From: an uncultured Flavobacteriales bacterium
GTDB taxonomy: Bacteria; Bacteroidota; Bacteroidia; Flavobacteriales_G; Salibacteraceae
DNA length: 64,000 nucleotides
Direction: 5' to 3'
NCBI GenBank assembly: GCA_913057205.1
Contig: CAJXNO010000012.1
Coordinates: forward strand, 1-64,000
In this document: positions 36,542 to 37,671 of the stretch, in pieces
Position numbering within the stretch: the stretch's first letter is position 1
How the letters are laid out: each line of letters opens with the position of its first letter
Made by a program: the position numbers and the translations under genes
Notes under the pieces: model-generated
Databases searched by the model: none
Told to the model about the DNA's origin: nothing
What the model saw: only the letters and a program-made list of their open reading frames with translations

Positions 36542-37090
36542 ATGAAAAGCTTATTTCTTTCCATCGCATTCCTAGCAACAATGACGACCGCAACAGACCC
36601 AACGATTTACCAATTCACCATGCAAAGCATTGAAGGTGAGGATGTTTCTCTCGAGCAATACAAAGGCAAAGTGGTTTTGATCGTGAATGTAGCGAGTAAG
36701 TGTGGCCTTACACCACAGTACAAAGACCTCCAGGCACTTTATGACCAGAAAGCCGACAAAGGCTTAGTGATCCTAGGCTTCCCGGCAAACAACTTTGCAG
36801 GGCAAGAGCCAGGTTCTGACGATGAGATCGCGACCTTCTGTGAAAAGAACTACGGGGTAACCTTTCCTATGTTCTCCAAGATCTCTGTAAAGGGAGATGA
36901 CATGCATCCACTGTATCAGTTCCTCACCCAAAAGGAAATGAACGGAGTTTCAGACTCCAAGGTGAAGTGGAATTTTCAGAAATACCTCGTTAGCAAAGAC
37001 GGCAAGTTGGTTGAGGTCATAAGTCCTACGACCTCCGTTCTAGAAGAAAGCGTGCAGTCGAAGATCGACGCACTTTTGGCACAGGGATAG
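36542..37090 (+). CDS. Glutathione peroxidase-family (thioredoxin-dependent) peroxidase
   Basis: A 182-residue peroxidase with an apparent N-terminal signal peptide (MKSLFLSIAFLATMTTA), implying export to the periplasm. The catalytic set is present: Cys54 in NVASKCGLTPQY, Gln88 in FAGQEPGS, and Trp142-Asn143 in VKWNFQKYL. Bacterial members usually use thioredoxin rather than glutathione. It is divergent from the fructosamine kinase gene, and its stop is only 4 bases before the -7 element of the tRNA-Ala gene. Confidence 0.92.
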   Translation: MKSLFLSIAFLATMTTATDPTIYQFTMQSIEGEDVSLEQYKGKVVLIVNVASKCGLTPQYKDLQALYDQKADKGLVILGFPANNFAGQEPGSDDEIATFCEKNYGVTFPMFSKISVKGDDMHPLYQFLTQKEMNGVSDSKVKWNFQKYLVSKDGKLVEVISPTTSVLEESVQSKIDALLAQG

Positions 37091-37093
37091 TTT

Positions 37094-37101
37094 TATATTT
37101 G
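37094..37101 (+). promoter_or_regulatory. -7 element TATATTTG of the tRNA-Ala transcript
   Basis: Perfect TAnnTTTG immediately after the peroxidase gene and 95 bases before the mature tRNA start, leaving a leader that contains the palindromic repeat. Confidence 0.5.
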
Positions 37102-37143
37102 TCGCCTCATTTGAGGGCCGTGTCAGTGGTTCATCATCCGGTA

Positions 37144-37175
37144 GTACCGAACGGTACGTTAGGGCGGGGAGCGCT
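37144..37175 (+). repeat. Palindromic repeat, copy 1 (tRNA leader)
   Basis: A 32-base segment centred on GTACCGAACGGTAC and ending GGGCGGGGAGCGCT. It is identical to 37565-37596 at 31 of 32 positions. In copy 2 the last bases (GAGCGCT) are the 3' side of a tRNA D-arm, so copy 1 may itself derive from a destroyed tRNA gene. Confidence 0.8.
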
Positions 37176-37196
37176 GAAGAAACATTCTCAACTAAC

Positions 37197-37270
37197 GGGG
37201 GATTAGCTCAGTTGGCTAGAGCGCTACACTGGCAGTGTAGAGGTCATCGGTTCGAATCCGATATTCTCCA
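37197..37270 (+). tRNA. tRNA-Ala (GGC)
   Basis: A 74-base cloverleaf. Acceptor GGGGGAT pairs with ATTCTCC (including the G3-U70 pair that marks alanine tRNAs). The D-arm is GCTC-AGTTGGCTA-GAGC, the anticodon arm CTACA-CTGGCAG-TGTAG with anticodon GGC at 37231-37233, and the T-arm ATCGG-TTCGAAT-CCGAT. The discriminator base is A and the 3' CCA is not encoded. Confidence 0.95.
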
Positions 37271-37275
37271 CATAA

Positions 37276-37308
37276 AAAAGCCTGCCTTTTTTGGCGGGCT
37301 TTTATTTT
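37276..37308 (+). terminator. Terminator after tRNA-Ala
   Basis: Stem AAAAGCCTGCC / GGCGGGCTTTT (one T-G wobble) with a T6 loop, followed by ATTTT. It lies between the tRNA and the GIY-YIG gene and ends 7 bases before that gene's ATG. Confidence 0.7.
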
Positions 37309-37314
37309 CATATC

Positions 37315-37524
37315 ATGAAGGTTTACGTACTTCAATCATCCGTAAATCAATCGCAGTATGTGGGTATGTCGGCTGATCCTGATCGACGTCTCCTTGAGCA
37401 CAATGCTGGCAAAGTGACCTCTACCAAAGCAAAGAAGCCGTGGTCGATAATCCATGTTGAGTCGTTTGAAAATAGACGTGAAGCAAGAGCAAGAGAAAAA
37501 TACCTCAAATCAGCAGCTGGCTGA
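37315..37524 (+). CDS. Minimal GIY-YIG nuclease domain protein, possibly truncated
   Basis: A 69-residue protein consisting only of a GIY-YIG domain: VYVLQSS for the GIY strand, QYVGMSADPDRR for the YIG strand and catalytic Arg, and a basic C-terminal helix (EARAREKYLKSAAG). It ends at a TGA in a place where relatives usually continue with two arginines, and the same frame stays open after the stop (RFRKKRSGSWLP). A CGA-to-TGA change is thus likely to have shortened it by a few residues. It sits between an intact tRNA-Ala and a broken tRNA-Ala copy, an arrangement suggesting a tRNA-linked mobile nuclease. The start at 37315 follows a terminator hairpin; there is no clear promoter of its own. 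Confidence 0.75.
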   Translation: MKVYVLQSSVNQSQYVGMSADPDRRLLEHNAGKVTSTKAKKPWSIIHVESFENRREARAREKYLKSAAG

Positions 37525-37564
37525 AGATTCCGAAAAAAACGCTCAGGTAGTTGGCTACCCTCCC

Positions 37565-37596
37565 GTACCGAACGGTACGTTCGGGCGGGGAGCGCT
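37565..37596 (+). repeat. Palindromic repeat, copy 2 (inside tRNA D-loop)
   Basis: Same element as 37144-37175, with one difference (C instead of A at 37582). The core CGTACCG-AA-CGGTACG is a perfect 7-bp inverted repeat. Confidence 0.8.
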
Positions 37597-37619
37597 TGAC
37601 TGGCAGTCAAGAGGTCGTG

Positions 37620-37642
37620 CCTGCCCGAATGGTACAGGCGGG
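37620..37642 (+). repeat. Related palindromic insertion in the tRNA T-stem
   Basis: A 23-base insertion with CCTGCCCG, AATGGTA and CAGGCGGG. GCCTG/CAGGC forms a stem and the CCCG...GGTA...GGCGGG order resembles the longer copies, so it is probably a diverged member of the same family. Confidence 0.55.
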
Positions 37643-37671
37643 GGTTCGAATCCCATCTTCTCCACAACTAT

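Follow-up and report, generated by a model that had tools for sequence, protein, structure and literature searches.

Organization of the tRNA-Ala(GGC) locus

The stretch of DNA analyzed here (hereafter the window) covers 64,000 nt, positions 1-64,000 of the forward strand of contig CAJXNO010000012.1 in assembly GCA_913057205.1, and harbors a single intact tRNA-Ala(GGC) gene, preceded by the remnant of an element of the arrangement termed type A below and followed by a second unit, composed of a GIY-YIG nuclease gene and a doubly interrupted tRNA relic (Table 1). ARAGORN and Rfam agreed on this tRNA as the only one in the window (66.8 bits), no other Rfam family being represented, and the genome-wide scan for Ala-GGC genes recommended by the first-pass annotation recovered no further intact copy, although three of the 33 tRNA matches were not individually read.

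Table 1. Features of the tRNA-Ala(GGC) module and its upstream neighbor, in window coordinates
Feature	Positions	Strand	Basis
Glutathione-peroxidase-like gene	36542-37090	+	ORF; family name from our own reading of the sequence
Bacteroidota-type promoter box TATATTTG, original promoter of the tRNA gene	37094-37101	+	Sequence; same box at empty sites
Type A element remnant (decayed 5' tRNA stub, palindrome, GAGCGCT, possible leftover nuclease 3' end)	37110-37196	+	Comparison with intact Ala-clade type A leaders
D-loop palindrome of the upstream remnant	37144-37168	+	Identity to the relic's copy
Intact tRNA-Ala(GGC)	37197-37271	+	ARAGORN, Rfam
Intrinsic terminator of the tRNA (terminator-like hairpin)	37276-37303	+	Hairpin
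GIY-YIG nuclease, 69 aa, TGA at an Arg of relatives	37315-37524	+	ORF, Pfam, fold model
tRNA-Ala(GGC) relic (tRNA nt 14-75), 5' acceptor strand gone	37540-37667	+	Alignment to the intact gene
32-nt palindromic insert of the relic, D-loop/D-stem border (GGCTA^GAGCGC)	37558-37589	+	Alignment
23-nt palindromic insert of the relic, T-stem	37620-37642	+	Alignment

The first-pass annotation had described the intact gene with its terminator, the 69-residue GIY-YIG gene, and a second tRNA-Ala(GGC) broken by palindromes in the D-loop and T-stem, and all of these were confirmed. The alignment of the relic with the intact gene comprises 54 matched bases and is interrupted by the two inserts; as had been claimed, the relic retains the GGC anticodon and U70, it lacks the 5' acceptor strand, and it was not called as a tRNA when the window was scanned with ARAGORN and Rfam. 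Its identification as a tmRNA was rejected, the Rfam match (13.8 bits) lying below threshold and involving only the common T-arm and acceptor end. In its anticodon arm and 3' end, the relic is closer to another tRNA-Ala(GGC) allele of the genus than to the intact neighbor: its central block is identical at 29 of 30 positions to the allele of genomes G004, G005, G012, and G015, and at 24 of 30 to the adjacent tRNA. Judging from these identities, the relic may either have arrived with the incoming unit or represent the displaced resident tRNA.

An older remnant upstream of the intact tRNA, consisting of a 5' tRNA stub and a D-loop palindrome, was absent from the earlier description. The D-loop palindrome and the GAGCGCT that follows it recur there at 37144-37175, with 97% identity over 32 nt to the relic's copy (37565-37596), and comparison with relatives leads us to infer that they are left from another copy of the element. 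The remnant occupies the spot where promoter TATATTTG would put the start of the tRNA. The same box lies approximately 12 bp ahead of the tRNA at empty sites in G003, G006, and G011; in the window it is placed as at those sites, but approximately 85 bp of remnant have come to lie between the box and the tRNA. The sequence GAAACATT ahead of the window tRNA is comparable to the nuclease ends of two other loci (L038 and L187), and the remnant can be read, by inference, as a type A leader that has lost most of its nuclease. The glutathione-peroxidase-like gene is a syntenic marker of the tRNA-Ala locus in the genus, with orthologues upstream of tRNA-Ala(GGC) in six congeners (65-74% identity) and in G015 (53%).

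The GIY-YIG protein

The window ORF matches the Pfam GIY-YIG family (PF01541, E 4e-15), and its membership of the superfamily is met by residues Y4, Y15, R25, H29, and E61, invariant among 11 relatives, and by a nearly invariant G17; the fold was modeled with a pLDDT of 92.5. Proteins of this family measure approximately 69-100 aa and consist of the catalytic domain alone, with no space for a separate DNA-binding domain. The similarity to UPF0213 extends over the whole domain (PDB 1ywl, E 1.6e-11; PDB 1zg2, E 3e-9; profile A1), and both sequence and fold place UPF0213 and Slx1 nearer than SegB or I-TevI. No NCBIfam model matches the window protein, and PHROG homing-endonuclease families gave weak matches only. 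According to the neighborhoods of the loci and the Rfam search of the window, the gene stands alone, outside any intron or intein.

The window ORF stops at a TGA (37522-37524) where relatives carry Arg, and beyond it the frame reads on as RFRKN, the C-terminus of the family, into the tRNA relic. As far as the sequence can tell, the protein may thus be truncated and may represent a recent nonsense mutant; since the TGA precedes the family C-terminus, this copy may be inactive.

Linkage to tRNA genes and architecture

The survey drew on 100 relatives (protein search), on the phylum (profile search), and on named GTDB contigs of Algoriphagus, Roseivirga, Ekhidna, Flavobacteriales MAGs, and MAGs of Chloroflexi, Chlorobiota, Parcubacteria, and Magasanikbacteria, all loci being selected on nuclease similarity alone. 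In the phylum search 235 of 395 genomes were positive at E<=1e-9, with up to 14 copies. An intact tRNA gene lay within 400 bp of the nuclease in 120 of 144 non-redundant loci, on the same strand in every one of the 120, as compared to the approximately 1.3% per gene expected by chance; the lack of such an association in related genomes, which the first-pass annotation had named as the finding that would refute it, can therefore be excluded. Of the remaining 24 loci, several are cut off by a contig edge, and two are found a short distance downstream of tmRNA, in the same orientation. In these two (L094 1085-1779 and L099 1569-2311) the nuclease relatives are approximately 130-150 bp from the tmRNA, which may therefore be a target as well. 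Four MAG loci, of Chloroflexi, Chlorobiota, Parcubacteria, and Magasanikbacteria (L192, L195, L197, and L198), show the same architecture, and the nuclease family thus extends past Bacteroidota. A phage or plasmid origin was considered and rejected, as no relatives were found in IMG/VR or among plasmids and phage matches were only 32-39% identical.

Beside the nuclease, 103 of the 120 tRNA-linked loci carry a partial copy of the same tRNA; the same caller detected copies in 140 of 163 flanks, vs. 8-20 in reversed, shuffled or distant controls. Two arrangements can be distinguished. In type A a 5' tRNA piece is followed by the nuclease and then by the intact tRNA. Of 59 such pieces, 54 begin at tRNA nt 1-3, and in 25 of 46 loci the stop codon of the nuclease falls within the intact tRNA. 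Type B opens with the intact tRNA, followed by the nuclease and by a 3' piece; of 77 such pieces, 72 extend to the tRNA 3' end. Both types form tandem arrays, in which the units are nearly identical and number up to five, e.g., five full nucleases in 450-bp units at a tRNA-Leu(CAG) (L232) and three at tRNA-Ser(TGA) (L234, L236, and L238). The promoter box was located ahead of the 5' piece in 15 of 41 loci and ahead of the intact tRNA in seven of 41. Terminators are equally frequent after the relic and after the intact tRNA (19/31 each), and a simple insertion into the tRNA is therefore not uniquely supported.

Two further loci lack part of this architecture. In G009 (L074, 1100-1900) a nuclease and a 3' tRNA-Met piece directly follow an IS3-type-like transposase gene, in a stretch without an intact tRNA. 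At one contig end of G007 (C32; L111 and L176), a 157-bp direct repeat carries a T-loop-type palindrome and a tRNA-like T-arm without a nuclease, and from its sequence it is possibly a solo remnant array.

Target fidelity, patchy occurrence and inferred spread

When the amino acid of the adjacent tRNA is mapped on a tree of 114 nucleases, 26 changes are required, as compared to a mean of 80 and a minimum of 71 after shuffling. The alignment has only 78 columns and good support is confined to few forks, so no single placement can be trusted; overall, the clustering by tRNA amino acid is far outside the shuffles. The fidelity of a lineage to one target across hosts, which is expected of homing endonucleases, is thus met on this tree, with the reservation of its few well-supported forks, and part of the isotype clustering could be due to vertical inheritance.

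The comparison of the locus with nuclease-free relatives, proposed in the first-pass annotation, did identify empty sites: the tRNA-Ala locus marked by the glutathione-peroxidase-like gene is unoccupied in four genomes (G001, G003, G006, and G011), while G015 has a type A element there, G009 a nuclease that is different and broken, and the window genome the module described here. Conversely, the Phe, Met, and Pro(TGG) loci are empty in the window genome and occupied in G003, G009, G015 or G020. Linkage to a target together with empty alleles in relatives, a further property of homing endonucleases, is therefore met. The window nuclease is 70% identical to the copy found at the tRNA-Ala of Algoriphagus, a member of another order, and only 46% identical to the broken nuclease of its congener G009 at the same tRNA locus, which points to lateral spread within one tRNA niche, insofar as sequence identities allow. 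The homing-like arrangement suggested earlier is supported by the linkage, the partial copies of the same tRNA, the isoacceptor specificity and the empty orthologous sites, a combination expected of homing, whereas recognition and cutting of the tRNA remain inferred.

Palindromic inserts

Of 141 inserts in the tRNA pieces, 85 were inverted repeats, many more than by chance (shuffled mean 28.8, maximum 42), and 37 of 46 clean palindromic inserts fell at loops or loop borders, where 21.7 were expected. Across isotypes the inserts have stereotyped positions: in 11 of 13 cases those of the T-loop split GTTC^GA or GTTC^AA, those in the anticodon loop at the Ser(TGA/CGA) loci share one identical point in seven of seven, and D-loop inserts are mostly found at TA^G. 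The consensus CCCGCCCGTACCGAACGGTACGTTCGGGCGGG is found again in relatives, and other clades have quite different palindromes. In the Leu and Ser(TGA) clades the position of the palindrome tracks the type A or type B arrangement and not the nuclease clade, which makes a single destroyed cut site less plausible.

The possibility that the palindromes are specific to the module was rejected, as the same kind is dispersed in the window genome (six copies, vs. one for the control) and in others; repeats resembling CCTGCCTGCCGGCAGGCAGG are likewise found away from tRNA sequence, G047 having 77 matches to the pattern. Caution is thus needed, since the palindromes are partly a separate dispersed repeat of these genomes. 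At two loci of G047 (L180 and L182), CCTGCCTGCCGGCAGGCAGG palindromes seem to occupy the loops of larger inverted repeats that lie away from tRNA, a placement that looks as if hairpin loops were the preferred site. Four Ala-type palindromes of G071 (L107, L113, L117, and L118) sit in another repeat context (TTTTA...TGGCTGAATT) without tRNA sequence, while three in the window genome (L157, L166, and L168, on C2, C14, and C30) have nearly identical flanks (GTCCGCC...GGCGGACAGGTGTCTTTCGTC), which, on sequence grounds, mark palindromes and flanks as a dispersed repeat of its own.

Whether the palindromes block a cut site, stabilize the insertion or are made by the nuclease is unresolved. A bolder proposal, that this minimal, domain-only GIY-YIG family consists of phylum-wide, isoacceptor-specific tRNA parasites whose enzymes also cut the hairpin loops of tRNA arms, fixing palindromes at the cut points (TTC^GA, TA^GAGC, and the anticodon loop) as footprints or products of the nuclease, remains doubtful.

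Proposed mechanism and alternative explanations

The window module is best explained as a single, decaying copy of a selfish element that is widespread in bacterial chromosomes. We assign a probability of roughly two in three to this element being a chromosomal, isoacceptor-specific, free-standing GIY-YIG homing endonuclease similar in action to the phage enzyme SegB, cleavage, site preference, and homing or transfer being inferred. The nuclease would cut an unoccupied allele of its tRNA gene, and the break would be repaired from an occupied locus or a neighboring copy via the common tRNA sequence; such a process would produce the structure observed at the loci, with the nuclease beside a tRNA that is kept intact and a displaced 5' (type A) or 3' (type B) piece left behind. 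Further rounds would build up the tandem arrays detected in the survey. The palindromes seen in the loops of the displaced piece might destroy its cut site, and might also shorten the direct repeats able to delete the element. Decay of the nuclease would finally leave solo remnants, such as the one observed upstream of the window tRNA, and stop codons are indeed found in relatives. Against homing, it is unclear how a domain-only protein would read a specific tRNA, and the intact tRNA beside the element still has the presumed site.

The tandem arrays, with their near-identical units, and the promoters or terminators duplicated in some loci could also result from local amplification only, where breaks made by a resident, vertically inherited nuclease lead to duplication of tRNA and nuclease, perhaps with a benefit of tRNA dosage, and the extra tRNAs decay without any horizontal homing, which is exactly what SegB does in phage T6 (PMC13096335). 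We consider this unlikely in view of the empty orthologous sites within one genus and of the higher similarity of the nuclease to one from another order than to that of a congener, which occupies the same locus; moreover, nearly all loci have a single intact tRNA copy, making a dosage benefit doubtful. Alternatively, a structure-specific nuclease resembling Slx1 or UPF0213 could open hairpin loops, those of tRNA arms included, which dispersed palindromes then enter, the tRNA linkage deriving from the strong hairpins. The preference of clean inserts for loops, the best sequence and fold matches of the protein, and the similar palindromes at other places, of which some seem to lie within the loops of larger inverted repeats, are in line with this scenario; it is nonetheless quite unlikely, leaving unexplained the isoacceptor specificity and the exact 5' and 3' ends of the pieces, and the numbers of palindromes and nucleases per genome appear unrelated by eye (77 and 4 in G047, 0 of that pattern and 7 in G013).

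The constant co-orientation of tRNA and nuclease, the stop codons inside the tRNA of many type A loci, which imply that tRNA processing would cut the message, and the clade-specific hairpins of the pieces, suggestive of constraint, could rather indicate a domesticated system at the RNA level, in which tRNA transcripts are the substrate of the nuclease or of its mRNA, and the tRNA-like piece, palindromic arm included, serves as a functional leader or trailer. The patchy presence, the stop codons found in part of the copies and the high variability of the pieces speak against it, we know of no RNase among GIY-YIG proteins, and we judge it very improbable. Finally, the decayed appearance of the window relic and ORF and the dispersal of palindromes in the genome might suggest the coincidence of a decayed duplicate tRNA, REP-like repeats and an unrelated small ORF nearby, the chances of which are practically negligible, as it is refuted by the linkage statistics over the 144 loci.

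If the homing interpretation is true, one to a dozen tiny selfish genes parasitize essential tRNA genes in most Bacteroidota genomes, and tRNA loci constitute a homing niche in bacterial chromosomes, as they do for SegB in phages. The family would then offer a catalog of very small nucleases with differing DNA specificities, account for puzzling tRNA pseudogenes and for ORF tails of tRNA sequence, and provide a testable model of a nuclease that spares a host whose sole tRNA copy is its target.

Comparison with known systems

No description of a chromosomal tRNA-linked family was found in the literature searched, whose coverage did not include most subscription papers and preprints, and a large Bacteroidota family located beside one particular tRNA and a damaged piece of it apparently had not been described before. 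The arrangement and its statistics are strong, while the mechanism rests on comparison. The single compact GIY-YIG domain resembles UPF0213 (PDB 1ywl and 1zg2) and the catalytic domain of Slx1; Slx1 acts together with Slx4 on branched DNA, and to our knowledge UPF0213 members have no tie to tRNA genes. Integrative elements that target and restore a tRNA likewise leave an intact tRNA beside a displaced fragment, but here the displaced piece can be the 5' or the 3' one and the nuclease is the sole gene: in the window and the loci read, no site-specific recombinase was found and there is no space for a further gene between the tRNA copies. With REP elements (PMC3733652) and Rickettsia palindromic elements the inserts share a length of 20-40 nt and their repetition in the genome, and they differ from both in their fixed loop positions within tRNA pieces; no Y1 transposase of the REP/RAYT kind (TnpA-REP) is present, the nuclease being the only gene-like ORF between the window palindromes.

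The closest parallel in behavior is SegB, a longer protein with a DNA-binding part after its catalytic domain. SegB of phages T4 and T6, whose first description is credited to Brok-Volchanskaya (2008, as cited in PMC13096335), is a free-standing GIY-YIG homing endonuclease that cuts within tRNA genes, prefers the motif RAWTSGAAC and drives tandem amplification of the tRNA-segB segment; a C-terminal truncation of 28 aa abolishes its toxicity, and the survey of its occurrence was confined to phage genomes (PMC13096335). By our own reading, the reverse complement of this motif, GTTCSAWTY, would correspond to the T-arm, and the T-loop palindromes described here split its center. Both systems have a non-intronic GIY-YIG gene co-located with tRNA genes of many isotypes, a T-arm motif, tandem repeats of tRNA and nuclease, and microhomology between the tRNA 5' end and the 3' end of the nuclease gene. 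They differ in that the carriers here are bacterial chromosomes, that the additional DNA-binding part of SegB is absent, so that membership of the SegB family is not met, and that the displaced tRNA pieces with palindromes have no counterpart that we found described for SegB. On the strength of this comparison we conclude that the present proteins are not members of SegB and would rather represent a separate, chromosomal, minimal variant that presumably works like it.
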